NCBI RefSeq assembly: GCF_036711975.1
Contig: NC_091976.1
Coordinates: 25,792,001-25,856,000, forward strand
Length of the DNA: 64,000 nucleotides
From: Onthophagus taurus
Lineage: Eukaryota; Arthropoda; Insecta; Coleoptera; Scarabaeidae
Direction of reading: 5' to 3'
A program made the translations under genes and the position numbers. Positions 7,090 to 60,500 of this stretch are shown here, in pieces. The notes under the pieces were generated by a model, which searched no databases, was not told where the DNA came from, and saw nothing but the letters and a program-made list of their open reading frames with translations. Numbering within the stretch: the first letter of the stretch is position 1; each line of letters starts with the position of its first letter.

Positions 7090-7119
7090 GTTAAAAGATG
7101 AGTCGTGTGTAGTCCCAGT

Positions 7120-7154
7120 ACTGTTCTGGACGAAGAACGGATACAGTTTAATAA
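7120..7154 (-). promoter_or_regulatory. putative core promoter of the Gln/Pro/Tyr-rich gene
   Basis: On the minus strand a TATA-like TTATTAAA (7147-7154) lies about 32 bp before an initiator-like ACAGT (near 7122). That leaves a 5' leader of roughly 35 bases before the ATG. Confidence 0.4.
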
Positions 7155-7159
7155 GCGGA

Positions 7160-8232: not shown

Positions 8233-8530
8233 TGTTCAGTTTTTAATCGAGATACTTTACTAGGACGTAGTACTTGCCAAAATAACACAAGTGTTTTATA
8301 TAAACATAGGGTCGCAACACTTTTGTTTTCGAGTTATGAACTGTCAAAGTTGAGCTAAAAATACACATTTTATCTTTTATTTCGGGTATAACTAAACCAA
8401 AGGTTTTGAAATTTTGTATGTATGTACTGAAAAGAGTTGCGGCCCTATGTTTATATAAAAAAATTGTGTTATTTTGGCCAGTACTACATCCTAGTAAAGT
8501 TTCTCGATTAAAAACTGAACCACCCTGTAT
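8233..8530. mobile_element. small fold-back element
   Basis: The left arm (about 8235-8330: TCAGTTTTTAATCGAGA, then ACTTTACTAGGA) is the reverse complement of the right arm (about 8430-8523: CATCCTAGTAAAG, then TCGATTAAAAACTGAA). The arms are roughly 90 bp with a short spacer, and the right end runs into CACCCTGTATAT. A one-armed relative lies at 3965-4155. No coding capacity. Confidence 0.75.
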
Positions 8531-8633
8531 ATAGGGTGAGAACTACTAAATCGTTTGATAAACAAAAAAATATTTTATACTAAAGTTGTTTGAATCACCA
8601 CTTTCTATTACGTAAAATTATTTTTACTTATAC

Positions 8634-8876
8634 AGGTGTTCCATTTAAGCGTAACGGAGAGTACGTAAATTTGTTTAAATCAGCGGTTCTCAAACTTGTA
8701 TCCTTGCGTACCACTAAGGCTATTTTAAAAATCAGGTAGTACCACTGAACAAAAAAAAACAATAATGATAATGCAAATATAAACTGTTTTGCGTACCACT
8801 TGAGAACTTCTCGCGTACCATCAGTGGTACGCGTACCATAATTTGAGAACCACTGGTTTAAATGGAACACCCTGTA
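8634..8876. mobile_element. palindromic element with ACAGG(G)TGTTCC ends, split by a hAT MITE
   Basis: The ends ACAGGTGTTCCATTTAA (left) and TTAAATGGAACACCCTGT (right) are inverted copies. The same terminal words occur at 9.1-9.2 kb. With the inner hAT insertion removed, the element is only about 60 bp. Confidence 0.65.
8681..8855. mobile_element. hAT-superfamily MITE, 175 bp, with 8-bp target duplication
   Basis: The termini are CAGCGGTTCTCAAA and, inverted at the other end, CAGTGGTTCTCAAAT, the classic hAT end consensus. The element is flanked exactly by the 8-bp direct repeat GTTTAAAT (8673-8680 and 8856-8863), the target-site length expected for hAT. Subterminal GCGTACCAC blocks are also inverted. 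There is no transposase. Confidence 0.92.
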
Positions 8877-9096
8877 TATTTTATCATATTATGAATACAA
8901 TTAAATTTGTTTATACAACAGTATATGTTCCTATTTCACAACGTTCATAGTTCCTCAGATATTCAATAATTATTCTTCCAAAATGTGCCCATTACAGGAT
9001 CTTTTTAAAAACGATGTAAAAACGATTCAATTTTGTCTTGAAACTATGTGAGATAATAGTTAAAGCCAGTAGGTAGTGGGTAGTAGGCAGTAGGTA

Positions 9097-10030
9097 GGTG
9101 TTCATAAAGCTTAGTTCCTTTTGATGTTTTTCAAATGGCTTATTTTTAAGATTTTTAAATGGAACACCCTGTATATTGTATGCAAGTTGAATTCCTCATA
9201 AAGTTCCCTTTAATTAATGATAAGTATGTCATATGTCTAACTTTAATAGTTTTCCTGATATTTAGAATTTAAAGAAAAATGTGTAATAAAATTTCATTAT
9301 TGTACTTAAAAAGGTGACATAATGTAATATATTCTGTCCTTTTTTTGTCACTTTTTTTTTGTTTGTCTGTCATTTGAAAATAAGTAATATTATATTAAAA
9401 TACAATTAAAAAAAACTTTAATAAATAAACAATCAAAACGTGATAAAAATACAAAAAATACAATTAAATGGCAGAACAATAAAATAATAATAAAACTATT
9501 AAATAATAAAACTATAAACAATTACTAAACGTTGCTCAACAAGTAGGTATTAATTTAATTAATATTTAGAAGTTGTTCAAAATGCCGCCCATTTTCTATT
9601 CTACAAGCATTAATGCGCTGTAATGGACTTTGAGGTATCTCTTAACATATGCATCTTATTTTCTCTAAAGTCATAATTTATATGGCAGAACAATTGCATT
9701 TTTAAATCTCATAAAGTACCAAGTCGCATTAAAATTTGGTATATGGCAGCAAAATTATTTTACATTATAAAATATTAATCAAATAATAAAAGGAAGAACA
9801 AAAAAAACTGATAAAAACAGACAGAATATAATATTAAGTACAATAACGAATATTAATTATAAATATCAGAAAAACTTAAAGTTAGATATATGACATATTT
9901 ATCATTAATTAAATGTAATTTGATGGGCAATTCAATTTCCAAGTTCCATTTTCAAGTTCCATTTAAAAAACTTATGAAAAAGCTATTTGAAAAACATCAA
10001 AAGTAACTAAGCTTTATAAATACGCTGTAT
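9097..10030. mobile_element. fold-back element with arms of about 250 bp
   Basis: The left arm (TTCATAAAGCTTAGTTCCTTTTGATGTTTTTC, then ...TTAATGATAAGTATGTCATAT) is mirrored at 9.84-10.03 kb (ATATGACATATTTATCATTAATT, then GAAAAACATCAAAAGTAACTAAGCTTTATAA). A GGAACACCCTGTATA word, shared with the element at 8.63 kb, lies inside the left arm. The centre is simple and AT-rich. Non-autonomous. Confidence 0.75.
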
Positions 10031-34347: not shown

Positions 34348-34846
34348 TTAATGTCCATGTCCGCCATAATGATGCTCGGGTCTGTAAGAACCATCATCGT
34401 AATGAGCAGCGCTGTTTTCAGGAACCCATTGTCCTTCGTGTCCATTTCCTGCCCATCCACCGTGACCTCCCCAAGCTCCAGCACCTCCCCATCCACCAGC
34501 CCATCCAGCTCCACCCCAACCTCCCCAACCACCGGCTCCATGTCCAGCCCAACCACTGTGATCTCCATGGTTTGAGGTAGAAACTTTTCCGGATGGTCCA
34601 GCGATGACTGAGCTACCATCTCCTGCTACGGAGACAGCTCCAGATCCGGGTCCGTACCATTTACCACCACCGTGGTCACCTCCCCAACCACCCCATCCTC
34701 CATGACCGCCCCATCCTCCATGTCCACCCCATCCTCCAGCTGCTACAGCAGCAATTGCAGCGAAAAGAACAACCTAATAATAATAATTGATAATAATAAA
34801 ATTAAAAATAAATTATTTTATTAGTTATACTCACGAAGACTTTCAT
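34348..34846 (-). CDS. secreted Gly/Trp-rich cuticle-type protein with DDGSYRPEHH tail
   Basis: Exon 1 is 34835-34846 (MKVF, donor GTGAGT), exon 2 is 34348-34773, 145 residues. MKVFVVLFAAIAAVAAG is the signal peptide. Then GGWGGHGGWGGHGGWGGWGG, KWYGPGSGAVSVAG, the family motif SSVIAGPSGKVSTS, a second Gly/Trp block (AGGWGGWGGAGWAGGWGG), and the tail EGQWVPENSAAHYDDGSYRP then EHHYGGHGH. The tail nearly repeats that of the gene at 29.2 kb, so these two are close paralogues despite opposite orientation. It has no cysteine in the mature chain and no chitin-binding domain. Confidence 0.9.
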
Positions 34847-34908
34847 GTTTGATTGTTACTCAAATTGTTGCTTGTACAAATTGATACTAAGATCTTGGTT
34901 TCGTTCCC

Positions 34909-34930
34909 TTTTATACCCAACAATTGACCT
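34909..34930 (-). promoter_or_regulatory. cuticle-type promoter: AGGTCA half-site plus TATA box
   Basis: CGAGGTCA (AGGTCA at 34925-34930) followed 10 bp on by TATAAAA (34909-34915), minus strand. Confidence 0.7.
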
Positions 34931-35593
34931 CGCAAAGACTTGGAATTGACTTGTGCCCCGAACAAAATAACAGACCGTTACAATTACATTGATTTTTTTT
35001 CTAAAACATTGAAACGTAGAGAATGTTGAGAAATAATGCGAAGGTCGAGCATGGTTTAACACCAAAGGCCAGAAAATATAATCCGCACGATTTGCCGAGT
35101 TGAGAACGACCGCATTGGTATTGTACACGGATCGTTGACCCATTGTACCCGTGACCCATTACGCGTTACACCTTGACTTTCATCTTCAATGAAGAAGTAA
35201 TTTGAACTTGAACTCTTCTTGCCTTATAGTATAATGTCAGCACAGAGAGATTTAATCGGTATTCTTCAATGAGAATTCATTACGTTGTTAATTACGTAAT
35301 TTATAACACAACAAAAAATTTAATATAAATAATAAGTCTTTTTAAATCTATTAGATTACTTTTTGGGTGTGTGTTATTATTGTTATAAATAAAACGATAT
35401 CAAGGTTTCTTTATAAAAGTGAAATAAACAGGATCTATTTTTTACCAACAAAATAAAACAATCATTTGTGTGTTTATCACAATTCTTTAATCTTAAAACG
35501 TAACATATATTTAAATCCAATTGGAACCTCTTCATATAACAAATTTTCGGTTCAAATAAACAACGTAATTCATGAAGTCTTAAGTAAATTGAA
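34931..35593. other. intergenic stretch
   Basis: No gene. Open frames overlapping this area on the minus strand are out of frame with the real genes. Confidence 0.5.
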
Positions 35594-36141
35594 CTACCAC
35601 CAGTGGCCACCATGATCGCCAGCACCATGATGTTCAGGTCTGTAAGATCCATCATCGCTACCATCAGGTCCCCAAGCGCCATCATGACCACCCCAAGAAC
35701 CATCATTTCCATCCCAAGATCCATCACCACCATCCCAAGATCCATCTCCACCATCCCAAGCACCGCTATCTCCGTCCCAAGATCCATCATTCCAGGATCC
35801 ATCATTCCACGATCCGTCATTCCAGGATCCGTCATTCCAAGATCCATCGTTCCATGATCCGTCGTTCCATCCACCATTCCATGCGCCGTTCCATCCTCCG
35901 TTCCAGCCACCCCATCCGTGCCAACCTGCACCCCATGGGCCAGCTCCACCAACGTGAACAGCTCCAGGTACTACTCCAGCGTGGATTCCTCCTACTGCTC
36001 CAATCCAACCTGCTTGAGCGGTCGCTATGACCAGCAAAAGGAAAGCGAATATCTAAAAGAGAAAAATTATTTAAAGAAAAAGTGTCGAAGAAAAGTAATT
36101 AAAGAAAAAGTAAAAAGAAATGCTTTTCTTACACTCTTCAT
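35594..36141 (-). CDS. secreted cuticle-type protein with WNDGS tandem repeats
   Basis: Exon 1 is 36133-36141 (MKS, donor GTAAGA), exon 2 is 35594-36052 after TCTTTTAG, 155 residues. MKSIFAFLLLVIATAQAG is the signal peptide. The mature chain has an Ala/Val/Gly/His stretch, WHGWGGWNGGWNGAWNGG, six perfect WNDGS pentapeptides in a row (about residues 66-95), diverged WDGGDGS units, and the family tail DDGSYRPEHHGAG ending GGHWW. The pentapeptide probably expanded by slippage from the same DDGS-type unit. Asp-rich and acidic, unlike the neutral WNG repeats at 33 kb. Confidence 0.9.
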
Positions 36142-40819: not shown

Positions 40820-41387
40820 TTAATGTAAGGAATAATGATGTTCGGGTCTGTACGATCCATCATCGTACAAATGTTCAGAAATATCTGGAACGTAACCACC
40901 ATCATGTCCAGCACCTAATCCAAGACCACCGAGTCCTAGTCCAAGACCGAGACCACCGGCGTAGTGTCCTCCGACAGCGTGTCCGTAAACGGTACCAGAT
41001 GGACCAGCGATGACAGCACCACCAGCGTGTCCTAATGCACCATGAGCAAGAGGAGCAATTGGTGCTACAAGACCAACTCCTCCAACAGCAACATGTCCTG
41101 GACTTACAGCACCGCTTACAACACCTCCGGGAATTGGAGCAGCGTTTACAACTCCACCATGGGCTCCACCAACGACGTGGCTACCATCTGGACCAACAAC
41201 AGATCCTTTGGCTGAAGGACCAGCGATGACTGCTCCTGGATTAGCGGGACCAACTAATGATCCACCATAATGACCAGCGTTAGCTGCTGCGAGGGTTACT
41301 AAGAAAATGGCAACCTAAAAAAATTCAATAATTTTTTTTTAATAACTTAATTAAATTTTTTTTTAATGAACTTACGATGGTTTGCAT
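40820..41387 (-). CDS. secreted Ala/Val/Gly-rich cuticle-type protein with GPDGS and DDGSYRPEHH motifs
   Basis: Exon 1 is 41376-41387 (MQTI, donor GTAAGT), exon 2 is 40820-41314, 168 residues. MQTIVAIFLVTLAAANAG is the signal peptide. It combines both subfamilies of the cluster. An N-terminal module (GPANPGAVIAGPSAKGSVVG, PDGSHVVGGAHGG, APIPGGVVSGAVSPG) is shared with the genes at 43, 56, 58 and 60 kb. A second AGPSGTVYGH follows. A Leu/Gly repeat (GLGLGLGLGGLGLG) precedes the tail YDDGSYRPEHHYSLH, shared with the Gly/Trp genes. It has the AGGTCA-TATA promoter. A good candidate for a form near the common ancestor of the two subfamilies, or a fusion of them. Confidence 0.9.
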
Positions 41388-45299: not shown

Positions 45300-47600
45300 T
45301 AAGTTTTAATTTTTATTTTAAAATTTGAAATGGGTAATTAAAAATTTTCTACTGATCACAGAGTAGTAAGAACCGCAACCAAATTCAGGCAATAAGAAGT
45401 CATGCCCTTTCGCTATTTGCATCTATATTATTATTTTAAAATAATTGGAAAATCGTATGTCAAGGACGAATTAAGATAAATTGATGAAATTGCAAACATT
45501 TAAAAGGTTATTTAACTCAGATTTAATGTGCCATTAATTATTTCTTATTTTCAACAAACCTCGTTGTTATGATTTTTTAAACCCAACTCTGCAAATTTAA
45601 TTGTTATAATAATAATAAGCATTTAAAAGAGATCGTATCTCAAGAACACATTAAGATATTTTGATGAAATAGCTTACATTTTGAGGATAAACCTCATTGT
45701 TATGATTTTCTAAACCCAACCTTGCTTATTAAATTGTTAGAAACGTTAAGAGCAAAAATTAAAAAAATCGTATCTCAAGAACGAAATTAGATATTTTGAT
45801 GAAATAGCAAACATTTTGAAGGTTATTTAACACAGATTTAGTGTGCCATTAATTATTTCTTATTTCCCATTAACCTCGTTGTTATGATTTTTTAAACCCA
45901 ACTGTGCGTATTAAATTGTTAGAAACGTTACGAGCAGAAATTTAAAAAATCGTATCTCAACAACTAAATGAGATATTTAGATGAAACAGCGTACATTTTG
46001 AAGGTCATTTAACTCAGATTTAGTGTACCATTAATTATTTCTTATTATCCATAAATCACGTTGTTATGATTTTTTAAACCCAACTCTGCATATTAAATTG
46101 TTAGACACGTTACGAGCAGAAATTTAAAAAATCGTATCTCAAGAACTAAATGAGATATTTTGATGAAATAGCGAACTTTTTGAAGGTTATTTAACACAGA
46201 TTTAGTGTGCCATTAATTGTTTCTTATTATCCATAAACATCGTTTTTATGATCTTTTAAGCCCAACTCTGCACATTTAATTGGAAATGTTAAGAATAGAA
46301 GTTTAAAAAATCATATCTCAAGAACGAAATGAGATATTTTGATGAAATAGCAAACATTTTGAAGGTTATTTAACACAGATTTAGTGTGCCATTAATTGTT
46401 TCTTATTATCTATAAACATAGTTGTTATGATTTTTTAAGCCCAACTCTGCATATTAAATTGTTAGAAACGTTAAGAGCAAAAATTTAAAAAATCGTATCT
46501 CAAGAACTAAATGAGGTATTTTGATGAAATAGCGAACAGTTTGAAGGGTATTTAACACAGATTTAGTGTGCAATTAATTATTTCTTATTTTCCATAAACA
46601 TCGTTGTTATGATCGTTAAAACCCAAGTATGCACAATAAATTGTTAGAAACGTTACGAGCAGAAATTTAAAAAATCGTATCTCAAGAACTAAATGAGGTA
46701 TTTTGATGAAATAGCGAACATTTTCAAGGTTATTTAACACAGATTTAGTGTGCCTTTAATTATTTCTTATTATCCATAAACATCGTTGTTATGACTTTTT
46801 AAACCCAACTCTGCACATTTAATTGTTAGAAATGTTAAAAATACAAAATTTAAAAAATCATATCTCAAGAACGAATTGAAATATAATAATGAAATACCCA
46901 ACATTTTTAAGGTTATTTAACACAGATTTAGTGTGCCATTAATTATTTCTTATCATCCATAAACATCGTTGTTATAATTTTTTAAACCCAACTCTGTACA
47001 TCAAATTGCTAGAAACGTTACGAGTAGAACTTTAAACAATCGTATCTCAAGAACGAATTGAGATATTTTGATGAAATAGCAAATATTTTGAAGGCTATTT
47101 AACACAGATTTAGTGTGCCATTAATTATTTCTTATTTTCCATAAGCATCGTCGTTATGATTTTTTAAACCCAACTCTGCATATTTAATTGTTATATTAAG
47201 ATAGAAATTTAAAAGATTGTATCTCAAGAACGAATTGAGATATGATAATGAAATAAAAAGCATTTTAAAGTAGATTTAATCAAGATTTAATAAAGCATAC
47301 ATAATTTTTTATTTCCCAAAAACCTCGTTATTATGAATTTTTAAACCCAACTCTGCAAATTTGATTACTATAAATTTGAAAAACAGAGTTTTAAAACATC
47401 ATATCTCAAGAACGAATTGAGATATCATGATGGTATAGCGAACATTTTGAAGGTAATGTATTAGAGATTTAGTGTACCATTAATTATTTATTAATTTCCG
47501 TAAATATTGTTGTTATGATTTTTTAACCCCAACTCTGCCCGACCTAGTAACAAATTTGAATCCTTTCTTTGGTTATTGTTAAAAAAATCGTAATAAATTA
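45300..47600. repeat. satellite array A, about 12 copies of a 180-bp unit
   Basis: Each unit contains TATCTCAAGAAC(G/T)AAATGAGATA, TTTTGATGAAATAGCGAACA, TTATTTAACACAGATTTAGT, GTGCCATTAATTATTTCTTA and TTTTTTAAACCCAACTCTGC, spaced 177-185 bp. Copies in the middle are most alike and edge copies most diverged. Both edges match those of array B: left edge CAGGCAATAAGAAGT, right edge AATCGTAATAAATTAAGG then TTTTAATAAATCG. The two arrays therefore descend from one copied segment, not from independent expansion. No gene inside. Confidence 0.92.
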
Positions 47601-47757: not shown

Positions 47758-48706
47758 TTAATATTTCGATAACAAATGGTTTTCTTCTGAATCACACAAA
47801 AAAGAAATTAATTTTTCTAAAAAAACTTTCATTAGAAGACTTCTTTCGTTTGAAATTTGAATAATATCATCATGACAACTTTCCGAATCGTTATCGTAGT
47901 TATTAACGAATACACTAGTAATTAAACTGAACGCGAGCACTTTCATTCCACAACGTTTCGCCGCCAATACTTCCGGTACAATACACATACCAATAACATC
48001 AACGTTACGAGCATTTAAAAACTTCACTTCAGCAACTGTTGCGTAATTCGGGCCGGTTAAATACGCGTAAGTTCCTACGTGTAGTTTATCTTGGAATTCG
48101 AGATCTTTAGTTAAGATATCTTTGGATTTTAAAAGAAGTTTTTTGTCGTAAATTGGGCAGTGATTTGCAAATTTGGGTCCACTTTTCTCGTTCAACGGTT
48201 CATCCACGGGATATAAATCGGGGAATCCCATCAAATAAACATGTTTGTTGATTAATATGATGTCTCCAGGTTGATATTTTGTGTTTATAGCAACTCCAGT
48301 ATTTCCCAAAAATAAATAATCAACTCCCAAAGCTTTTAAGATGTGTATCATCATCGTGCATTGTCTCGAAGTGTACCCCTGGTATAAATGCAACTTCCCT
48401 TGAACAATCAAAATCGGAAGCTTATGGAAGTAACCAAAAATTAATTGATGCGATTTCTTCGACACAACTTTCGGAAAATTCGGAATATCATGATAAGGTA
48501 TACAACAACACCGCCTTATTGTTAAGATTTCAGAAACGATATCAAGATCAGAACTACACATTATTGCTATTTTAACCACATCTTTTATTTTTCCTGATAC
48601 ATACTTCGCAGCTTCCTCAACAGCATGTACCCTAAATACATAAAAAGATTACTAATTAAACCACACCTAATTAATTCACGTACGTTATTCCATCGTCTCC
48701 ACTCAT
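47758..48706 (-). CDS. purine nucleoside phosphorylase paralogue with degenerate active site
   Basis: Exons 48684-48706 (MSGDDGIT start) and 47758-48631 (acceptor ATTTAG), 298 residues against 289 in human PNP. Family blocks are in order: KIAIMCSSDLDIVSEIL, DIPNFPKV, GKLHLYQGYTSRQC (His89, equal to human His86), PGDIILINKHVYLMGF, VGTYAYLTGPNYATVAE, DVIGMCIVPEVLAAKRCGMK, FSLITS and a late His261 (human His257). Spacing from His89 to 261 matches human without gaps, so substitutions can be read directly: Glu201 is Ala205, Asn243 is Ser247, Arg84 is Lys87, Ser220 is Cys224, and NAAGG is NTGVA. Loss of both base-binding side chains suggests a changed substrate or a pseudo-enzyme. The reading frame is intact over 300 codons, so it is under selection or young. 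Confidence 0.9.
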
Positions 48707-48884
48707 CTTCAAAATTATTAACTATAAATTTAGATTATTAAATTTAGAATGATGACAATTTTTTGATTTGTCAAATTTCTTACTCGAAAGAAGGCTAATA
48801 ACCTGTCAAAAAACACCTGGCCCAAAATTATTTTTAAGAATACTTTTGGCATCAAAATTGTTGAGTGATAACATCTAGATCAAA
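48707..48884. promoter_or_regulatory. 178-bp bidirectional promoter between two PNP genes
   Basis: The two start codons face away from each other with only this AT-rich stretch between. A TATAAA-like ACTATAAATT occurs at about 48720-48730. The leaders of both genes must overlap or be very short, so co-regulation is likely. Confidence 0.6.
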
Positions 48885-51800
48885 ATGACCGAAAAACCAG
48901 AAGAATTAGTAGAACCATATCAAGAAATACAAGTTGAAGGAGATAAATCTAAGTCTAAATCTACCCTTACGTAATTTGTAAAATAATAATTTATGTAATA
49001 ATAGAAAATATTACTTTTTAGGTATGAAGAAATTGAAGATTGTGCCAAGTTTATAAAGGAAGCTACAAATACAACTGCTAAAATTGCAGTTATAGCTGGA
49101 TCATCAATGGGTAGGTTTAGATTGAAAAGTTTCAACTGATCATAGAATAGTAAAAACTGCAATTCAGGCAATAAGAAGTACAAAAAAGTCGAAAGTATTC
49201 CAATTAATCATGCCCTTTCTATGTTTGCATCTACATTCTTATTTTAAGGATATTTTGAAAATCATATCTCAAGAACGAAATGAGATATTTTGATGAAATA
49301 GCTAACATTTTGAAGGTTATTTAACACAGATTTAGTGTGCCATTAATTATTTCTTATTTTCCATAAACATCTTTGTTATGATTTTTTAAACCCAACTCTG
49401 CATATTTAATTGGAAATGTTAAGAATAAAAATTTAAAAAATCATATCTCAAGAACAAAATGAGATATTTTGATGAAATAGCGAACATTTTGAAGGTTATT
49501 TAACACAGATTTAGTGTGCCATTAATTATTTCTTATTATCCATAAACATCGTTATTATGATTTCTTAAACCCAACTCTGCATATTTAATTGGAAATGTTA
49601 AGAATAAAAATTTAAAAAATCATATCTCAAGAACAAAATGAGATATTTTGATGAAATAGCGAACATTTTGAAGGTTATTTAACACAGATTTAGTGTGCCA
49701 TTAATTATTTCTTATTATCCATAAACATCGTTATTATGATTTTTTAAACCCAACTCTGCATATTAAATTTTTAAAACGTTAAGAGCAGAAAGTTAAAACA
49801 TCGTATCTCAAGAACGAAACGAGATATTTTGATGAAATAGCGAACATTTTGAAGGTTATTTAACACAGATTTAATGTACCATTAATTGTTTCTTATTATC
49901 CATAAACATCGTGGTTATGATTTTTTAAACCCAACTCTGCATATTTAATTGTTAGAAACGTTAAGAGTAGAAATTTAAAAAAGCGTATCTCAAGAACGAA
50001 ACGAGATATATTGATGAAATAGCGAACATTTGGAAGGTTATTTAACACAGATTTAGTGTGCCATTAGTTATTTCTTATTATCCATAAAAATCGTTGTTAT
50101 GATTTTTTAAACCCAACTCTGCACATAATTGTTATATTAAGAATAGAAATTAAAAAATCGTATCTCAAGAACGAATTAAGATATTTTGATAAAATAGCGA
50201 ACATTTTGAAGGATGTTTAACACAGATATAGTGTGCCATTAATTGTTTCTTATTATCCATAAACCTCGTTATTATGAATTTTTAAACACAACTCTGCAAA
50301 TTTGTAGAATAGAGATTTAAAAAATCGTATCTCACGAACGAATTGAGATATCATAATGATATTGCGAACATTTTAAAGCAAATTTAATGAATATTTGATG
50401 TGCCATAAATAATTTCTTGGTTTCCATAAACTTCAATGTTATGATTTTTTAAACTCAACTCGACATCTTTATTAATATTTTAAAAATAGAAATTTGAAAA
50501 GTCATATCTCAAGAACGAATTGAGATATCACCATGAAATAACAAACATTTTAAAACAAATTTAATAACGATTTAATAAGCCATAAATGATTTCTTATTTC
50601 TCATAAACCGGGTTGTTGCGATTATTTAAACCCGTCTCTGCATGTTGCGTTATGTATCTAAACAATAAAAATTTAAATTGTTGTATCTCCAGAACGAATT
50701 GTGATATGATGATGAAATAACGAACATTTTAAAGCAAATTTAATGAATATTTGATGTGCCATAAATAATTTCTTGGTTTCCATAAACTTTATTGTTATCA
50801 GTTTTAAACTCAATTCAACATCTTTATTAACATTTTAAAAAGAGAAATTTAAAATGTCATATCTCAAGAACGAATTGAGATATCATCATGAAATAACAAA
50901 CATTTTAAAGCAAATTTAATAACGATTTAACGTGCCATAAATGCTTTCTTATTTTTCATAAACATCGTTGTTATGATTTTTTAAACCCACTCTGCACATA
51001 ATTATTATCAATTTAAAGAACACAGTTTTAAAAACTCGTATCTCAAGAACGAATTGAGATATCATGATGATTTTGCGAACATTTTGAAGGTAATTTATTA
51101 GAGATTTAGTGTACCATTAATTATTTCTTAATTTCCGTAAATATCGTTGTTATGATTTTTTAACCCCAACTCTGCATAAAAAATGTGAATAAAAAAATCG
51201 TAATAAATCAAGGTTTTAATAAATCGTTATGAAATTATCAGCAATTATAAATAAAAGCATAAGCTTTTCAATGAAAAAGATCAAATTTGGAGATACCTTT
51301 CAGTTTTTGAGATACAAATTTTTAATGTCAATCGGTTCTTTATATATTTTGAGCCTTCAATACATTTAGTGCATACATAATACAACAAAATAGAAATACA
51401 ATTAACATAAACTAAATTAAACTTAATTTTTCTATATAATCGTTAATTTTTGAAGTAAAAATTATTTTCTTAGATACTTTGGGTTTAAATGTAACAGAAG
51501 CAACGACCATTCAGTACGAATTAATTCCTCATTTCCCAAGAAGTGAATCATCTATTGGTAAAATCATCGCAGGTAATATGGAGAACACACCAGTTTTGAT
51601 TTTTAAAGGACGCTATCACCTTTATGATGGTTACACGATGCAAGAATGCACCATGCATATAAAAGTTTTAAAATTACTCGGTGTTAAGGTTTTAATTATA
51701 ATTAATACTTCCGGGGGAATTAATCAAGATTACAAAATCGGGGATATAATGTTGGTTAAAGACCATATAAATTTACAAGGATTTGCAGGACAAAATCCTT

Positions 51801-52306
51801 TAATTGGTCCAAACGATGAACGATTTGGACCTAGATTTATTCCGATGAATAAAGTGTACGATAAAGATTTATTGGGGAAAGCGAAAAAAATTTTGGATGA
51901 AATTGAATTTGAAGGGACGATTCACGAAGGAGTGTACGCAACAGTTTCTGGGCCAGCTTATGATACGATATCAGAAAATCTGTTTTTAAAAACTTGTGAA
52001 ATTGATGCTGTTGGATTGACGATAATTCCCGAAGTGTTAGTTGCTAAACATAGCGGAATGTCCATCGTAGCTTTCTCAATAATAACAGATCAAGAAATCG
52101 TGGATGAAAATAACGATAAAGAATTTAATCACGAGGAAATGATCGAAATTTGCGATAAAAGAACAAAACAACTCAATGAATTCTTAGAAAAATTTGTTAA
52201 AATTGCTGTCTTATCTAAGGAAGAGGGGGATATTGAATGCGGGGGTGATGAAATCATCACAAAATCTTCCAAACGAATACGTTGTAAATGTAATAATCTT
52301 AATTGA
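48885..52306 (+). CDS. purine nucleoside phosphorylase with Asp/Asp purine site
   Basis: Exons 48885-48970, 49022-49110 and 51474-52306 (donors GTAATT, GTAGGT; acceptors TTTTTAG, TTCTTAG), 335 residues. There is a 29-residue Lys/Glu/Ser N-terminal extension, then TYEEIEDCAKFIKEA, IAVIAGSSMDTLGL, ELIPHFPRSE, GRYHLYDGYTMQECTMH, INTSGGINQDYKIGDIMLVK, DHINLQGFAGQNPLIGPNDE, RFGPRF, EGVYATVSGPAYDTISE, DAVGLTIIPEVLVAKHSGMS and a Lys/Cys tail. Phosphate- and ribose-site residues are kept (Arg105, His107, His278). The base-binding pair is altered: human Glu201 is Asp222 and Asn243 is Asp264, with exact family spacing (42 and 14 residues to the next markers). Asn243Asp in human PNP is reported to favour 6-aminopurines such as adenosine, so an adenosine-type phosphorylase is a reasonable inference. 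Purine salvage, cytosolic. Intron 2 (2.36 kb) holds satellite array B. Confidence 0.92.
49250..51200. repeat. satellite array B, about 11 copies of the 180-bp unit, inside PNP intron 2
   Basis: Same unit and orientation as array A (TATCTCAAGAACGAAATGAG, ATTTAGTGTGCCATTAATTA, TTTTTTAAACCCAACTCTGC). The first five copies are nearly uniform; later ones diverge (GATTTAATAAGCCATAAATG variants at 50.4-50.95 kb). The right edge repeats the AATCGTAATAAATCAAGG and TTTCAATGAAAAAGATCA sequence that borders array A at 47.6 kb. The splice sites on both sides are untouched. Confidence 0.92.
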
Positions 52307-52389
52307 TCTATTTTAATAAAAAAATTTGAATTATTTGCTTATGTTTATTTTAATTTAATCAATATTATAAATACATTTTAATTAACTGT

Positions 52390-52966
52390 TTACCATCCAT
52401 GATGACCATAACCGTAACCATGATCTCCAATTACTGAGTGTCCAAATGCAACAGGTACAGCATGAACGGGAATAGGCGCGTGATCAATTACAGCACTGCT
52501 ATATGAAACAACTTTACTAATAGCTGGTGCAGCTACAGCAATTGGAGCTATAACTGGAGCAACAACTGGAGCTGCATGAGCTACTATTGGAGCTGCATGA
52601 GCTACAATTGGAGCTGCATGAGCTACAACAGGAACAGTTTGTGCAACATATCCCGGTTCTACATGAGCAGATACAACTCCTCCTGGATGTCCATCACTGA
52701 CTACAGCACCTGCATCAGCAGCAGCATGAATAACACTTCCATCAGGACCTACAACGACAGCTTTTGTAGCTGGTCCTTTTACAATCGCCGCTGGTTCAGC
52801 TGGACCAGCTACAACGGCTCCGATTGCGTGTGAGTAAGCTGTGGAGATGATTCCAGCGAAAAGAATGAACAAAAACTGAGAATAAACAAAAATAAATTAG
52901 ATTATTTATTTAGGTTAATCCATATTGATTGAATAATATAAGTTGTGGTCTTACCGAGGAGTTCAT
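52390..52966 (-). CDS. secreted Ala/Val/His-rich cuticle-type protein with AHAAPIV repeats
   Basis: Exon 1 is 52955-52966 (MNSS, donor GTAAGA), exon 2 is 52390-52875 after TTCTCAG, 165 residues. Signal MNSSFLFILFAGIISTAYSH. Family N-terminal motifs are present but diverged: AIGAVVAGPAEPAAIVKGPA, TKAVVVGPDGSVIHAA, GHPGGVVSAHVEPG. The centre carries three VAHAAPIVAHAAPIV heptads followed by APVIAPIAVAAPAI; AAP[AV] repeats are a recognised hallmark of insect cuticle proteins. It ends YGYGHHGW. Its stop lies 83 bp from that of the plus-strand PNP gene (tail to tail), so their 3' ends may overlap. Confidence 0.9.
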
Positions 52967-53028
52967 GGTGATTGAGTGTTCTGGTAAACCGCAAATAGTT
53001 TGTAATTAGATCGGGTTGGACGCCGTCG

Positions 53029-53065
53029 TTTATATACCAAGTTAAATTCGAAAAAGTAGAACCTT
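53029..53065 (-). promoter_or_regulatory. TATA box with upstream AAGGTT box
   Basis: TATATAAA (53029-53036), with CAAGGTT at about 53060-53066 on the minus strand. Confidence 0.5.
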
Positions 53066-53337
53066 GAGGCGAAGGTATTCGCAGTTGAAGGTTGGTTTAA
53101 ACTTCCGTTTGGCGCGAGACTTTTGTTTATCACGAAATGTGATTTAAATAAAAGTGTTTAGTCACGATTAATTAAAAATACTCTCATTTTAGGATTTAAT
53201 TTTATGTGGTTATAATAAATTAATTTTCTTTTTATTATTTACACATTTATTAAAAATATAAAATATAGATTAGAATTGTAGGGAATCCTGGTCGTTATAT
53301 GTACATTAGCACCATTACGCAGAAAATGATATTATTT

Positions 53338-53635
53338 AACATTTTTAGTCACCTCTCCATGAGCTATTATCACTGTCCCAGCTACCGTCATCTCTTTTCC
53401 AGGATCCATCATCACCATCCCATCGCCCATTGTTACAATGTCCATCATTCCAGCCGTTCCAAGCTCCTACACCATACCAACCGTTCCAGTCTCCTCTTTT
53501 CCATCCACTCCTTCTTCTTCTCCAGTTATTACCAACTATAGTTCCTGAAGGTCCAGCAACTACAGTACCTTTACCACCCCATCCTACTGTTTCTGCATTT
53601 ACGCATTAAACAGCAATAGCAAGGAAAGTTACAAT
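53338..53635 (-). pseudogene. truncated tandem copy 1 of the 54.2-54.9 kb gene
   Basis: Matches exon 2 of the intact neighbour from IVTFLAIAV to the C-terminus, but has no exon 1 and no splice acceptor. The TAC codon after AIAV is now TAA, and the Trp/Gly repeats are shortened and diverged (RRRRSGWKRGDW). The last codon is also altered (GDxKC instead of GDGKW). It lies in the first of two incomplete duplication units (53209-53638 and 53639-54079) whose edges carry GGTTATAA. Not a working gene. Confidence 0.85.
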
Positions 53636-53768
53636 CAAGGTTATAAAAAATTAATTTCCTTTTTATTATTTACACATTTATTAAAAAATATAAAATATAC
53701 ATTGGAAATGTACTGAATCCTGGTCGTTATATGTACATTAGCACCATTACGCAGAAAATGATATTATT

Positions 53769-54076
53769 TACCATTTTCCGTCACCTCTCCATGAGCCATC
53801 ATCACCGTCCCAGCTACCGTCATCCCCTTTCCAGGATCCATCATCACCACCCCATCTTCCATCGTTCTAACGTCCATCATTCCAGCCATTCCAACCGTTC
53901 CAAGCTCCTACACCATTCCAGCCGTTGCAGTTTCCTCCTTTCCATCCACTCCATCTTCCTCTCCAGTTATTACCAACTATAGTTCCTGAAGATCCAGCAA
54001 CTACAGTACCTTTACCACCCCATCCTACTGTTCCTGCATTTACGCATTAAACAGCAATAGCAAGGAAAGTTACAAT
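53769..54076 (-). pseudogene. truncated tandem copy 2 of the 54.2-54.9 kb gene
   Basis: Same truncation and the same TAC-to-TAA change in the signal peptide as copy 1, so the defect preceded the second duplication. It adds a stop at DGRxND (CGA or CGT TGG changed to CGT TAG). It is closer in sequence to the intact gene than copy 1 and retains the GDGKW end. Confidence 0.85.
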
Positions 54077-54208
54077 CAAGGTTATAAAAAATTAATTTCC
54101 TTTTTATTATTTACATATTTATTAAAAAATATAAAATATACATTAGAATTGTACTGAATCCTGGTCGTTATATGTACATTAGCACCATTACGCAGAAAAT
54201 GATTTTAT

Positions 54209-54942
54209 TTACCATTTTCCGTCACCTCTCCATGAGCCATCATCACCGTCCCAGCTACCGTCATCGCCTTTCCAGGATCCATCATCACCATCCCATCTTC
54301 CATCGTTCCAACGTCCATCATTCCAGCCGTTCCAACCATTATTCCAGCCATTCCAACCATTCCAACCATTATTCCAGCCGTTCCAACCGTTCCAAGCTCC
54401 TACACCATTCCAGCCGTTATTCCATCCGTTCCAGTCTCCTCCTTTCCATCCACCCCATCCACCCCAACCTCCCCATCCTCCTCTCCAGTTATTAGCAACT
54501 ACAGTTCCTGATGGTCCAGCGACTACAGCACCTTTACCACCCCATCCTGTTGCTCCTGCATTTACGCAGTAAACAGCAATAGCAAGGAAAGTTACAATCT
54601 GAAAATGCAAAAAGAATTGTTTGATTAAAATAGAGAGATAAAGAATTTAGACTTGAGTACATTGACCTGAGTTTAAGTTTATGTTACAATAGTTGGGTTA
54701 AGAAAAAAAATGAGGGTATTGTATAACTAAGGCGGTGTTTCTGTGGGCGTTTAATTGATGCCGGTAAGTTATAAAAGTTAAAGTGACATAATTATGGTAT
54801 TCAATAAAGCGTAGATTTAAGAAATCGAAAACTTGATATTAAACTTATCCTAACAAAATAAAGTACTCCTAGATTATTTAAAATAATAAGTTGTAAACAA
54901 CAAAATAATGGTAATAATTGATGATCTTACCAGAAGTTTCAT
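54209..54942 (-). CDS. secreted Trp/Gly/Asp-repeat cuticle-type protein
   Basis: Exon 1 is 54931-54942 (MKLL, donor GTAAGA), exon 2 is 54209-54598 (acceptor TTTTCAG), 133 residues. The intron (332 bp) is far longer than in its neighbours. Signal MKLLIVTFLAIAVYCVNAG. Then GKGAVVAGPSGTVVANNW (family motif), RGGWGGWGGWGGWKGGDW, WNGWNNGWNGW repeats, and an acidic C-terminal repeat of about nine residues (DGDDGSWKG, DDGSWDG, DDGSWRG) ending DGKW. Source gene of the two truncated copies downstream. The long intron may come from the same local rearrangement. Confidence 0.88.
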
Positions 54943-56335: not shown

Positions 56336-56912
56336 TTACCACTTTCCGCTTGGTCTATAAGATCCATCATCTCCATCATCACAATCATCGCCAAGACCAA
56401 GACCTACGGGTCCAATTGGGCCAACGGCACCAACACTAACAGCACCTAATCCATTAGAAACGACAGTTCCTGATGGTCCGGCTAAAACAGCTCCGCTTAA
56501 TCCGTTGTTAAGTCCAATACCAAGACCAATGGGAACTGGGGCTATAATTGGTGAAGGGATTGCGATTGGGGCTTGAATTGCAATTGGGGCTGGGATTCCG
56601 ACAAGTCCCGGGGAAACTGCACCGCTGACGACTCCTCCAGGAATAGCTCCGGCTGCTATAGCACCAGCTTGCGCAGCTCCAGAAACGATTGATCCATCTG
56701 GGCCGATTACTGATCCCTTTGCTGCAGGTCCTTGAAGGATAGCTCCAGGATTTCCAGGTCCAACAAGTACCCCTCCTAATGGAAGTCCAGGGTATCCATT
56801 AGCAACGCATACAGTAATTGCGAAAAGAACGATCTAAGATAAAAAGTTATGTTTCAATCTTAGAAAACATTATAGGTATTAAATTTTGTTGAGATATTAC
56901 CAAAGTTTTCAT
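56336..56912 (-). CDS. secreted Ala/Val/Ile/Pro-rich cuticle-type protein, GPDGS subfamily
   Basis: Exon 1 is 56901-56912 (MKTL, donor GTAATA), exon 2 is 56336-56833, 169 residues. Signal MKTLIVLFAITVCVANG. Modules: PLGGVLVGPGNPGAILQGPA, AKGSVIGPDGSIVSGAAQAG, AIPGGVVSGAVSPG, an Ile/Pro/Ala stretch (PAPIAIQAPIAIPSPIIAPV), GLSGAVLAGPSGTVVSNGLG, and the acidic tail GDDCDDGDDGSYRPSGKW. A single cysteine lies in the tail, which could allow dimer cross-linking. Tandem paralogue of the 58-kb gene, duplicated together with both flanks. Confidence 0.9.
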
Positions 56913-56981
56913 CTTGGATGTTTGTATGTTTCTGCTGTGAGACTGTTCGTTGTGAACTAAAGTTGATGGCGAGCTTGCAGG

Positions 56982-57058
56982 TTTAAATACTTACTAAATA
57001 GCCTTCAAAAAGCACAAACCAAAGAACTTACCGTTAAAACTAGAAACTGATGCAATGT
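56982..57058 (-). promoter_or_regulatory. promoter shared by the three Ala/Val genes
   Basis: TATTTAAA (56982-56989) with TGAAGGCTA just upstream and ATTGCATCAGTTTCTAG at about 57040-57057 (minus strand). The last box recurs before the genes at 58.6 kb (about 58782) and 60.5 kb (about 60713). Confidence 0.55.
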
Positions 57059-57149
57059 TTTATATGCATTACGCATCCTTGAATGTATTTTTATATTTTT
57101 ATCAATAATTTACTCAAAGATATGTAGGAGTTTTGCTATAATGTCATAT

Positions 57150-57960
57150 AGTTGCATAACAAATCAATAGCTTTGCTGTAAAGGATTTCAGAAAGGAACT
57201 CCTATGTGTTTGTGACAATGTCAAAATGTATTGTATTATTATTTGAAACATTTTTTTATATATGTATAAAGTTTTAAAGTTAATATTATCTCTAAAATTG
57301 TTGATTTCAAAAAATTGTGGCATCCAAACTTTTTGTAGTAATAAAATAATTTTTGGCATGTTAAGTCCGCATTAAATTTTCTTTGAAGTGTTTGTTATTA
57401 GATTAAGATAGCTCATTTAGTTCTTGAGATTTATTACTTTGACAATCTATGAATGTTGGATGGATTTTGAAATTAGGCAAATTTGATTTCAAAAAACTGT
57501 AGGATCAATATGTATGGGTTTGAATTTAGAATAAATTTGCTTTGAAATTTATTTTGTTTTAAGGCGATATCTCAATTTGTTCTTGAGATAAAAATGTTTA
57601 AGATTGATAATTAAAATATTGCATATTACGCAAAGATAAATTCAAAAAATCGTGACATCCAGATTTATTGGAATTAGAAAATAATTTTTGGTATGTTAAA
57701 TCTGGCTTAAATTTCCTTTAAAACATTTTTTATTTCATCATGATATCTCAATGAGTTCTTGAAATACATCATGTTAAAACTTGGCAATTTCACCTCTATG
57801 TGTATTACGCAAATATGAATTCAAAACATTGTAGCTTCTAAATTTATTGCTGTGTCGATTCTAAATTAATTTTGCTTTAAAATGCATTATAGTTTGAGGA
57901 GATATCACAATTTGTGCTTGAAATACAAATTTTTAAAGATATATAAATAATAAAAATGCA
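57150..57960. repeat. diverged inverted satellite, about four copies of 155-170 bp
   Basis: Landmarks TCATTTAGTTCTTGAGAT (57412), TCAATTTGTTCTTGAGAT (about 57581), TCAATGAGTTCTTGAAAT (about 57752) and ACAATTTGTGCTTGAAAT (about 57907) are the complement of the CTCAAGAAC core of the other satellites, so this array runs on the opposite strand. It lies within the DNA between the two duplicated genes. Confidence 0.7.
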
Positions 57961-58086
57961 TGAATAATTTTTATAATATCATTTTAATATGAATAAATAC
58001 ATTTTGGTACACTGCCACAAATAGCAAATAACATAGCCTAAGTCTTCAGTTGAACAGTCATTAAGATCAAAAAATCCTCTCTCCAT

Positions 58087-58646
58087 TTACCACTTTCCAC
58101 TTGGTTTATAAGATCCATCATCGCCATCATCGCAATCATCACCTACAGGGCCAATTGGTCCAAGGGGACCAACAGCATCAACACTGACTGTACCTAATCC
58201 ATTGGAAACCACAGTTCCTGATGGTCCAGCTATAACAGCTCCGCTTAGCCCATTGTTAAGTCCAATACCAATAGGAGCTGGAACTATAATTGGTGAAGGG
58301 ATTGCGATTGGGGCTTGAATTGCAATTGGGGCTGGGATTCCGACAACTCCTGGCGAAACTGCAGCGCTAACGACTCCTCCAGGAATAGCACCAGCTGTTA
58401 TGGCACCAGCTTGCGCAGCTCCAGAAACGACTGATCCATCTGGGCCGATTACTGATCCCTTTGCTGCAGGTCCTTGAAGGATAGCTCCAGGATTTCCAGG
58501 TCCAACAAGTACGCCTCCTAATGGAAGTCCAGGGTATCCATTAGCAACGCATAAAGTAATTGCAAAAAGAAAGATCTAAGAATTAAAAACATTATGCTTT
58601 ATAATTTTAAGAGAGAATTGTCTTGAATCATTACCAAAGTTTTCAT
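58087..58646 (-). CDS. secreted Ala/Val/Ile/Pro-rich cuticle-type protein, tandem paralogue
   Basis: Exon 1 is 58635-58646 (MKTL, donor GTAATG), exon 2 is 58087-58575, 166 residues. Nearly the same as the 56-kb protein through AKGSVIGPDGSVVSGAAQAG and PAPIAIQAPIAIPSP. Differences: IFLFAITLC in the signal, AITAGAIPGG, SAAVSPGVVG, IVPAPIGIGL, and a loss of Leu-Gly-Leu before the tail, which reads GDDCDDGDDGSYKPSGKW (Arg to Lys). 5' and 3' flanks are also duplicated (TTTGGTACACTG at 56268 and 58008), so it arose by unequal exchange of a unit of about 1.75 kb. Confidence 0.9.
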
Positions 58647-58714
58647 TTTGAATTGGTTATGTTTCTTCTATGACACTGTTCGTTGTGAACTAAAATTAAT
58701 GGTGAGTTTGCTGG

Positions 58715-58800
58715 TTTAAATACTTACTATATAGCCTTCAAAAAGCACAAACTAAAGAAGTTACCGTTAAAACTAGAAACTGATGCAATGGTTATACGCA
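58715..58800 (-). promoter_or_regulatory. promoter of the 58-kb gene
   Basis: TATTTAAA (58715-58722), with the ATTGCATCAGTTTCTAG box at about 58780-58797, as in the 56-kb gene. Confidence 0.55.
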
Positions 58801-58994
58801 TTACGGATTGTTGTATATATTTTTATTAATAATTTAAACAAAGATATGCGTTTTGCTATAATGTCATATTGTTGAATAACAAATCATAATTTTTATTTAT
58901 TTCAAATGCTGTTTTCTTTATCTAATTAACTTCATTATGTGATTTTATTATACCATTTTTGTGAACGGCTTGATAACAATCACTTCTAAGTTTC

Positions 58995-59590
58995 TGCTTC
59001 TTCTAAAATTACTTGGTAGTAACTAAGTATGGTGTGGCAAAAAATTGAGGACAAGTTTTGACAAAGTCTTTATTGTTTATCAACCTCTTTTGGCATTCTG
59101 CATTAATAACAATTCACTTGGTATATTAAAGAAAGTAATAAATCTTGTATTCAAAGTTTTCAAAAAAATTTTAGCAAACTGAAGATATATTGAGAATCTA
59201 TCCTCCAAGTTTATAAATCTTCTAAAATTATCTGATAGTAACTATGTATGGTGTGCCAAAAAATTAAGGACAAGTTTGGCAATGTCTTTATTGTTGTTTA
59301 TCAACCACTTTTAGCATACTGCATTAGTAACAAGTCACTCGGTATATTAAAGAAAGTAATAAAACTTGTATGATTCATAGTTTTCAAAAAATTTTTAGCA
59401 AACTCAAGATATATTTAGTAACTATATTAATAACAACCTTTGCATTGTATGTGAAAAAAAAATGGTGATCATTTTGATTATCATTAAGTTTTGACAATTC
59501 ACTCTGTATAGCAAAGATAATAGTGAAACTTGTAAGATCTACTTGTAACTCCAAAGATATTTGGAAACTACATTAATTTACTTTATGTAT
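58995..59590. repeat. tandem duplication of about 210 bp, two and a half copies
   Basis: ACTAxGTATGGTGTGxCAAAAA starts at about 59018 and 59230. The copies share ACTTGGTATATTAAAGAAAGTAA-type words and AAATTTTAGCAAACT. A third, weak copy follows to about 59590. Non-coding intergenic DNA. Confidence 0.7.
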
Positions 59591-59846
59591 TTATTAATAA
59601 AGATCTCTTCATCTTATATGATCAACTACAGTGTCTATATGATTCTTAATAACTTTATGGTTTGAGATATTTTCTTTAATATATGTTAGTAAAGGGTGAA
59701 AGTACAAGAAAATACAGTTTTTTATGAACATACGAAAAAAGTTTTATTTATATACACCAATATGATACATTGGAAAAGTACAAAGTACAACATAAGTTTA
59801 AGAAAATCATAGCCTTCAAGAAAAACCATCTTCCTGCTTCTTATCA

Positions 59847-60500
59847 TTACCATTTTCCACCCCATCTACCCTCATCCCATCTTCCATCATCTCCTTTTCC
59901 GTTCCAACTACCATCATCCCATCTACCATCATCCCATCTGCCATCGTCCCAACTTCCACCGTTCCATCCTCCAGAAACAACAACTTGGCTGCTAACAGCA
60001 GGAGCAACAACTGCACCACCCCATCCTGCACCACCCCATCCTGCTCCACCCCATCCTGCTCCACCCCAACCGGCTCCTCCCCATTTACCCAATCCATTAG
60101 TAATGACAGTTCCTGATGGTCCAGCTAAGATAGCACCTCCTCCAATTTTACCTACACCAATTGGTACAGCGGCTGGGACAACAACAGGGGCAATTGGAGC
60201 TGCAACGATACCGGATGAAACTACTCCTTTAACAACTCCACCGGGAATTGGAGCTGCTGCTAAAGCTCCAGCTTGTCCACCTCCAGAAACAACGCTTCCA
60301 TCTGGACCGATTACGGTTCCTTTGGCAGCAGGCCCTTGAAGGACCGCTCCTGGATTACCTGGACCAACTAAAGCTGCGCCCAAAGATAGGCTTGGTAAAC
60401 AGTTGACTGTGCAGATAGCAACAGCAAAAAGAACAATCTTAAAAAAATAATTATTAATTTTAATTCATGAAAAGTTTATTTTTCTTACCAAAGACTTCAT
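59847..60500 (-). CDS. secreted Ala/Val/Gly cuticle-type protein with GWGGA and WDDGR repeats
   Basis: Exon 1 is 60489-60500 (MKSL, donor GTAAGA), exon 2 is 59847-60437 (acceptor TTTAAG), 200 residues, the longest of the cluster. Signal MKSLIVLFAVAICTVNC. Modules: ALVGPGNPGAVLQGPAAKGT, VIGPDGSVVSGGGQAG, APIPGGVVKGVVSSG, IAPVVVPAAVPIGVG, GGAILAGPSGTVITNGLG. Then four perfect GWGGA pentapeptides in a row, VVAPAVSSQVVVSGGW, and WDDGRWDDGRWDDGSW with a GGKW end. It joins the GPDGS N-terminal module to a Trp/Asp repeat tail of the kind seen at 36 and 54 kb, another case of module mixing. Both long complementary-strand open frames are shadows. Confidence 0.9.

Follow-up and report, generated by a model that had tools for sequence, protein, structure and literature searches.

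What do two purine nucleoside phosphorylase (PNP) genes do when they stand head to head in a beetle genome and neither encodes the residues that mark the mammalian enzyme as specific for 6-oxopurines? The question arises from a stretch of 64,000 nucleotides of Onthophagus taurus DNA (NC_091976.1, positions 25,792,001 to 25,856,000 of the forward strand; hereafter the window), in which two divergently transcribed PNP-family genes, here called PNP-plus and PNP-minus after their strands, lie within positions 47758-52306. The mammalian signature, Glu201 together with Asn243, is absent from both members of the pair and is present in a third PNP gene of the same genome. PNP-plus has Asp243, the mark of adenosine-accepting enzymes of the D243 type, which PNP-minus, with Ser243, lacks. 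The sequences indicate that PNP-plus is most likely an adenosine-accepting phosphorylase, which may keep some activity on inosine, and that ordinary phosphorolysis by PNP-minus is unlikely.

Replaced base contacts in two head-to-head PNP genes

The gene models (Table 1) give PNP-plus three exons encoding 335 amino acids and PNP-minus two exons encoding 298, with GT-AG splice sites throughout. The PF01048 profile scored 134.1 bits for PNP-plus and 103 bits for PNP-minus (cut-off 25.1), which together with the models bears out the head-to-head PNP paralogues proposed in the initial annotation of the window. Anopheles gambiae PNP was the closest PDB match of both copies (E values of 9.5e-72 for PNP-plus and 3.5e-55 for PNP-minus). 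PNP-plus scored above the cut-offs of TIGR01697 (249.1 vs 197.1) and PRK08202 (253.5 vs 218) and below that of TIGR01700 (256.4 vs 293.35); PNP-minus fell below all three (178.1, 173.9 and 191.8, respectively), and none of its 11 NCBIfam matches reached its own cut-off. In fold, length, PF01048 membership and the residues His86, Tyr88, Phe159 and His257 the pair resembles the trimeric PNPs of Anopheles (2p4s), human and cattle, but it differs from them by Asp/Asp and Ala/Ser in place of Glu/Asn at 201/243 and by an altered loop at residues 60-64.

Residues are numbered as in bovine PNP, which equals the human numbering here, from an alignment with the bovine protein. The alignment placed Asp at both 201 and 243 of PNP-plus, and Ala and Ser at the same positions of PNP-minus; these are the residues assigned in the initial annotation, and no others were placed there. 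That annotation had relied on gap-free spacing, which held for PNP-plus from residue 84 to 260 but not near residue 60, where PNP-plus is two residues short and PNP-minus one (the exact place of the latter gap depends on the alignment), nor for PNP-minus, which has one insertion of two residues and one of a single residue. None of these gaps and insertions touches the assignments at 201 and 243. PNP-plus retains Ser33, Arg84, His86, Tyr88, Phe159 and His257, and its replacements are T116, S117, Y200, D201, L219, T220 and D243. PNP-minus retains Ser33, His86, Tyr88, Phe159 and His257, and has S32, D34, D36, K84, T116, G117, V118, A119, Y200, A201, C220 and S243, among which are its phosphate-site changes (G32S, G34D, G36D, R84K and S220C). 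His64 and Thr60 are gone from both copies. Ser33, Arg84, His86 and Ser220 presumably serve the phosphate site. All four are among the active-site residues listed in PMC9916683.

In being a phosphorylase that acts on 6-aminopurine nucleosides, methylthioadenosine phosphorylase (MTAP) invites comparison; it has Ser at the 201-equivalent position in the alignment and, we assume, Asp at the 243-equivalent one. Misannotation of MTAP genes was ruled out for the pair, whose TIGR01694 scores (63 for PNP-plus and 36.5 for PNP-minus) lie far below the cut-off of 274.85, and also by a separate MTAP gene encoded elsewhere in the genome.

Asp243 and adenosine

We read PNP-plus as adenosine-accepting because Asp at position 243 gives adenosine cleavage in the PNPs of human, calf and K. 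lactis. The human N243D enzyme shows a 5,000-fold gain in kcat for adenosine (PMC6128611), the K. lactis N256D enzyme has a KM of 10.3 µM and a kcat/KM of 2.2e6 for adenosine and still uses inosine (PMC5074518), and calf and human N243D enzymes phosphorolyse adenosine (PMC6274182), so that the gain of adenosine activity cited for such mutants in the initial annotation is upheld. The human double mutant E201Q:N243D (hDM) cleaves adenosine-based prodrugs (PMC2799393). PNP-plus shares Asp243 with these engineered proteins, and residue 201 is altered in hDM also; PNP-plus differs in being natural, in its Asp201, where the engineered enzymes have Gln or Glu, and in its additional pocket changes.

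PNP-plus would most likely still be a trimer that carries out phosphorolysis by way of Ser33, Arg84, His86, Tyr88 and His257, which we take to be catalytic residues. Asp243 would be the hydrogen-bond acceptor for both the 6-amino group and N7-H. With a side chain shorter by one carbon than that of Glu, Asp201 would no longer enforce the contact with N1-H, so that with these two residues adenosine, and probably some inosine, would serve as substrate. The adenine product could be recycled by an adenine phosphoribosyltransferase (APRT). Adenine can probably be used in this genome, because two adjoining APRT-like stretches are present on contig C7. They match positions 18-96 (79.8 bits) and 95-167 (67.3 bits) of a profile 169 positions long; both scores are below the cut-off for the whole family, 185.85, and the second stretch was read over a TAG.

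Asp243 in bacterial PNPs

The bacterial sample comprised 150 loci. Eighty came from contigs. A search by peptide patterns around residues 80-92 had given 363 loci, of which these were the best 80; the conservation of Arg84, His86, Tyr88 and Glu89 in them is therefore partly by construction. Thirty were the top hidden Markov model matches of one search covering 299 genomes from the phylum of a Clostridiaceae locus (114 of the 299 above the cut-off), and 40 were stretches picked by hand from the list of the same search, six of them chosen for two matches side by side. The 178 open reading frames (ORFs) were reduced to 173 by a length filter and to 172 unique ones, 171 of which could be scored at 243.

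Asp243 occurred in 56 of the 171 scorable trimeric PNPs. At 201/243 the pairs were Glu/Asn in 115 ORFs, Glu/Asp in 42, Ser/Asp in seven, Cys/Asp in four and Met/Asp in three, with one ORF unscorable. A residue other than Glu201 was thus found in 14 of the 56 Asp243 proteins and in none of the 115 Asn243 proteins (Fisher test, p 4.8e-8); the association persisted after clustering at 70% identity (91 representatives, p 9e-5) and at 60% (51 representatives, p 0.004), although the rows are related and the p-values consequently overstated. On a tree of 51 rows from which PNP-minus was left out, Asp243 requires three changes, all three forced by well-supported branches and one of them in the animal PNP-plus, and the replacement of Glu201 requires three, of which two are forced. 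The recurring bacterial Asp243 pattern, which PNP-plus fits, strengthens the prediction that it accepts adenosine. Asp243 enzymes with solved structures, recognized in alignments, are 4lna, 4m1e and 8swt.

PNP-plus has Asp243 in common with proteins from Planctomycetes, Spirosomataceae and Zixibacteria, from Bacillota tandems, and with 4lna and 4m1e; Glu201 is absent only in this class, whose bacterial members often stand beside an Asn243 copy. The bacterial proteins differ from PNP-plus in their separate tree origins, in having Ser, Cys or Met and not Asp at 201 when Glu is replaced, and in keeping His64 and Ser220, with Ser or Thr at residue 33. A literature search for natural Asp243 trimeric PNPs, with most subscription journals outside its scope, had nothing on point among the records listed.

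Two PNP ORFs were present at 27 of the 150 bacterial loci. In 26 of these, one Asn243 and one Asp243 ORF are neighbours (loci in Table 1), with Ser, Cys or Met at 201 only in the Asp243 copies; the 27th has an Asp243 copy and an unscorable ORF. Such tandem pairs may perhaps represent a general split into 6-oxo- and 6-aminopurine enzymes; the records listed by the literature search for natural Asp243 PNPs had nothing on such a split.

A canonical third gene and the origin of the pair

The window's own genome (290.8 Mb) was the only insect genome searched. PF01048 gave nine matches in it, several of them exons of a single gene, and a search with PNP proteins found, besides the pair, a single locus at 43743325-43744047 of another contig, C1. 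Two domain exons of this C1 PNP were assembled, but a first exon could not be located. The protein has the canonical Glu201/Asn243, shares 62% identity with Anopheles gambiae PNP and 56% with the bovine enzyme, and has at the compared sites the residues common to those two, except at residue 35, where it has Met and both others Leu.

Intron 2 has an identical position and phase in PNP-plus and C1 PNP and is absent from PNP-minus. The boundary of intron 1 is the same in the two members of the pair and lies two codons upstream in C1 PNP, judged by the acceptor. PNP-plus and PNP-minus share eight derived residues, including 36D, 116T, 200Y and 221I, as well as a loop near residue 60 that is shortened in each. 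They grouped against all others (support 91/82) in a tree of 19 rows, 14 of them bacterial and taken from the best 80 of 363 loci; this grouping could reflect long-branch attraction. Because a canonical PNP is encoded on another contig and the branches of the pair are long (1.32 and 2.57, compared with 0.36 for C1 PNP), we conclude that the pair consists of fast-evolving extra PNP copies. An ancestral PNP gene presumably duplicated in the ancestry of the insect, and the extra copy would then have duplicated again to give the head-to-head pair.

Bacterial acquisition of PNP-plus was ruled out, since it groups with the animal PNPs and shares intron position and phase with C1 PNP. In the 51-row tree, which used 47 of the 171 bacterial rows, PNP-plus fell inside the animal group (99/94). 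A search of viral contigs for relatives gave ten pattern matches, none of which was confirmed.

Constraint on PNP-minus

The PNP-minus frame is intact, with 298 codons and no internal stop at saturated synonymous divergence. Neutral simulations that started from the PNP-plus or the C1 coding sequence left the frame free of stops in 0 of 500 runs in each of six settings. Pairwise ratios of nonsynonymous to synonymous substitution rates (dN/dS, NG86 method) for PNP-minus were 0.31 with PNP-plus and 0.19 with C1 PNP, at a dS above 2, which is saturated; maximum likelihood put dS at an implausible 4.2 to 21.3, so that the ratios indicate only that dN/dS is below 1. The relaxed selection considered for this copy in the initial annotation (dN/dS near 1) therefore left no sign. 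With dN/dS below 1 and intact frames, a pseudogene was judged unlikely for both copies. The AlphaFold2 model of PNP-minus has a mean predicted local distance difference test score (pLDDT) of 85.5 and a predicted template modelling score (pTM) of 0.87, and its best structural match is 2p4s (TM score 0.88).

The many changed conserved residues of PNP-minus and its long branch could be taken for the decay of a pseudogene. We consider decay very improbable, given the stop-free frame at such divergence, the dN/dS values, the outcome of the simulations, the consensus splice sites and a fold that is confident overall. Since its base contacts, Arg84, Ser220 and the phosphate-loop glycines are all changed, PNP-minus is unlikely to carry out ordinary phosphorolysis; neither Ala201 nor Ser243, nor the pair of them, was seen among the 171 scorable bacterial proteins. 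Changed catalytic residues (A201, S243, K84, C220, D34/D36) in a constrained frame are marks of a pseudoenzyme, and the view that this copy is altered and probably non-canonical stands. Most likely PNP-minus would be a pseudoenzyme or would bind a different ligand, and it may be a partner of PNP-plus.

A second, divergent MTAP-like gene lies about 25 kb from the normal MTAP gene (L012), on the minus strand of L013 (4248-3357; C7:4075612-4076100), and is identical to the normal MTAP at 84 of 189 aligned residues. It has Ala at a base contact and Cys at a phosphate contact, the same replacements as A201 and C220 of PNP-minus.

Alternative explanations

The joint explanation that we favour, and that we hold about as readily as we doubt it, is that of a duplicated PNP of which PNP-plus accepts adenosine and PNP-minus is a pseudoenzyme or binds another ligand, while the canonical C1 PNP serves ordinary salvage, presumably handling the usual work on inosine and guanosine. 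Several observations weigh against an adenosine phosphorylase. Conserved active-site positions (from the 23 listed in PMC9916683, scored where C1, Anopheles and bovine PNP are identical) were kept at 10 of 19 in PNP-plus, compared with 44 of 80 for the rest, and at 8 of 19 in PNP-minus, compared with 39 of 80; a second list of active-site residues likewise gave no better retention (p 0.28 to 1). Such retention argues against catalysis, since strong catalytic constraint should preserve these positions, and the adenosine-type reading put forward in the initial annotation gains from the Asp243 precedents and the bacterial pattern but not from the conservation of the site. The exact Asp201/Asp243 pair occurred in none of the 171 bacterial proteins, and T116, L219 and T220 of PNP-plus were each found in none of the 172 ORFs. 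Adenosine use by the bacterial Asp243 enzymes was not found in print. The missing His64 and Thr60 of PNP-plus belong to the loop that closes the site, and the A118L substitution in Schistosoma PNP2, at a residue that the offset in numbering equates with human 116, keeps the phosphate loop in an open state (PMC6128611). The S. mansoni enzyme is a parallel in being the product of a second animal PNP gene with pocket and phosphate-loop changes, altered specificity and a change at the 116-equivalent, but it keeps its own Glu203/Asn245 (human 201/243). Schistosoma MTAP can act as an adenosine phosphorylase (PMC5147791), so that with MTAP also encoded here there is no need for a further enzyme of this kind. 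Among the records listed by a literature search on duplicated PNPs of insects or on adenosine phosphorylase in insects, with most subscription journals outside its scope, nothing was on point.

The equal loss of active-site and other conserved positions, the loss of His64, Thr60 and Ala116 from both copies, and the long branches would also suit two proteins that have left catalysis for a binding or structural role with the fold retained, Asp201 and Asp243 of PNP-plus then being drift and not a switch of specificity. We regard this as unlikely, though deserving serious thought. The active-site changes of PNP-plus are mild (mean BLOSUM62 score of 1.22, compared with 0.26 at other changed conserved positions; the corresponding means for PNP-minus are 0.18 and -0.42), its Ser33, Arg84, His86, Tyr88 and His257 are kept with Ser220 replaced by Thr, its trimer interface is retained above the rest (22 of 26 vs 44 of 80, p 0.0096 in one of six uncorrected comparisons), and its 201/243 pair obeys the bacterial rule. 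PNP-plus might instead act on another nucleoside whose base has donors at N1 and C6, such as isoguanosine: Asp201 and Asp243 are both acceptors, and S. mansoni PNP2, whose pocket is altered, acts on cytidine as well as on inosine and adenosine (PMC6128611). This appears improbable, as Glu/Asp and Gln/Asp pockets already suffice for adenosine-type substrates (PMC2799393, PMC5074518).

The heteromeric trimer raised in the initial annotation bears on both copies. In calf PNP, Asn137 and Asn145 of one subunit contact Asn199 and Glu205 of the next (PMC9916683). PNP-plus keeps Asn137 and Asn145 and has Ala199, and PNP-minus has Tyr137 and Tyr145 and keeps Asn199 and Glu205; Tyr at 137 or 145 was found in none of the 172 bacterial ORFs. 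This apparently reciprocal division of the cluster is a weak hint of a heteromer and, with the head-to-head arrangement across a 178-bp gap, favours a mixed trimer in which PNP-plus would supply the active sites and PNP-minus would be a stabilising or regulating partner without catalysis, as in a prozyme arrangement. We nevertheless give it a small chance: few positions are involved, Ala199 is also present in five of the 172 bacterial ORFs, any mixed trimer must include one like-like contact, the interface of PNP-minus is not retained above the rest (16 of 26 vs 39 of 80, p 0.27), and the model of PNP-minus has some of its lowest confidence in the inter-subunit loop (block mean pLDDT of 68, 56 and 74). 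Slim, too, are the prospects of the fullest form of the idea, a dedicated animal adenosine phosphorylase derived from the animal's own PNP and working as an obligate mixed trimer with its non-catalytic head-to-head sister, the halves of the interface divided between them.

Other features of the window and genome

The start codons are separated by 178 bp, as first described (the inference of a shared promoter aside), and this gap has 25% G+C. A motif scan yielded no more than a single TATA-like word, one match resembling an initiator and, for a loosely defined downstream element, four matches. Exon 3 of PNP-plus modelled alone with AlphaFold2 gave a pLDDT of 83.8 and a pTM of 0.82. Most of intron 2 of PNP-plus is occupied by a satellite whose repeat unit measures about 180 bp and which occurs also just downstream of PNP-minus (45687-47538). 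Hits about 180 bp apart in an intron of the C1 PNP gene (L010, about 5500-9300) suggest a repeat array there. A check of telomere repeats as a guide to the insect order gave no TCAGG match and one short interior TTAGG array, which does not point to a particular order.

Further PF01048 genes of the genome are L011 (3844-4899, minus strand, a single frame of 351 amino acids) and, in pieces, L007 and L009; they presumably resemble uridine phosphorylase. On the minus strand of the window, at 34348-36052, 40820-41314, 52390-54646 and 56336-60464, are short Gly/Ala-rich frames of secreted appearance, and in many of them motifs like GPSGTV or GPDGS occur; neither of the two tested had a Pfam match. 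The series is perhaps a cuticle-type cluster.

Table 1. Features of the PNP gene pair (window coordinates) and bacterial tandem loci.
Feature	Position	Strand	Content or basis
PNP-plus exon 1	48885..48970	+	start codon 48885, N-terminal extension; open frame, GT donor at 48971
PNP-plus exon 2	49022..49110	+	helix 1, strand 1, phosphate loop GSSM; splice sites
PNP-plus exon 3	51474..52306	+	remaining PNP domain, low-confidence C-terminal tail, stop
Asp201 codon, PNP-plus (human Glu201)	51962..51964	+	alignment with bovine PNP
Asp243 codon, PNP-plus (human Asn243)	52088..52090	+	alignment with bovine PNP
AATAAA 3' of PNP-plus	52315..52320	+	motif scan
Satellite array, unit about 180 bp, in PNP-plus intron 2	49258..51178	.	
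Gap between start codons, 178 bp	48707..48884	.	gene models, motif scan
PNP-minus exon 1	48684..48706	-	start codon 48706-48704; donor site
PNP-minus exon 2	47758..48631	-	entire PNP domain and stop; AlphaFold2 model
Rewritten phosphate loop, PNP-minus residues 32-36, SSDLD vs GSGLG	48541..48555	-	alignment
Ala201 codon, PNP-minus	48040..48042	-	alignment with bovine PNP
Ser243 codon, PNP-minus	47914..47916	-	alignment with bovine PNP
Tandem N243/D243 loci			L020, L024, L028, L031, L058, L068, L074, L075, L085, L090, L091, L093, L096
Tandem N243/D243 loci, continued			L098, L101, L102, L105, L109, L111, L120, L131-L136

Implications

An animal gene, in a genome that has retained a canonical PNP as well, here carries the single change by which engineers turn PNP towards adenosine. 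Position 243 has changed separately in bacteria, and none of the sampled proteins lacks Glu201 unless its residue 243 is Asp instead of Asn, a pattern that suggests a simple sequence rule for base specificity. If PNP-plus works as predicted, the animal could convert adenosine directly to adenine, bypassing deamination to inosine, with consequences for both purine salvage and adenosine signalling in insects.

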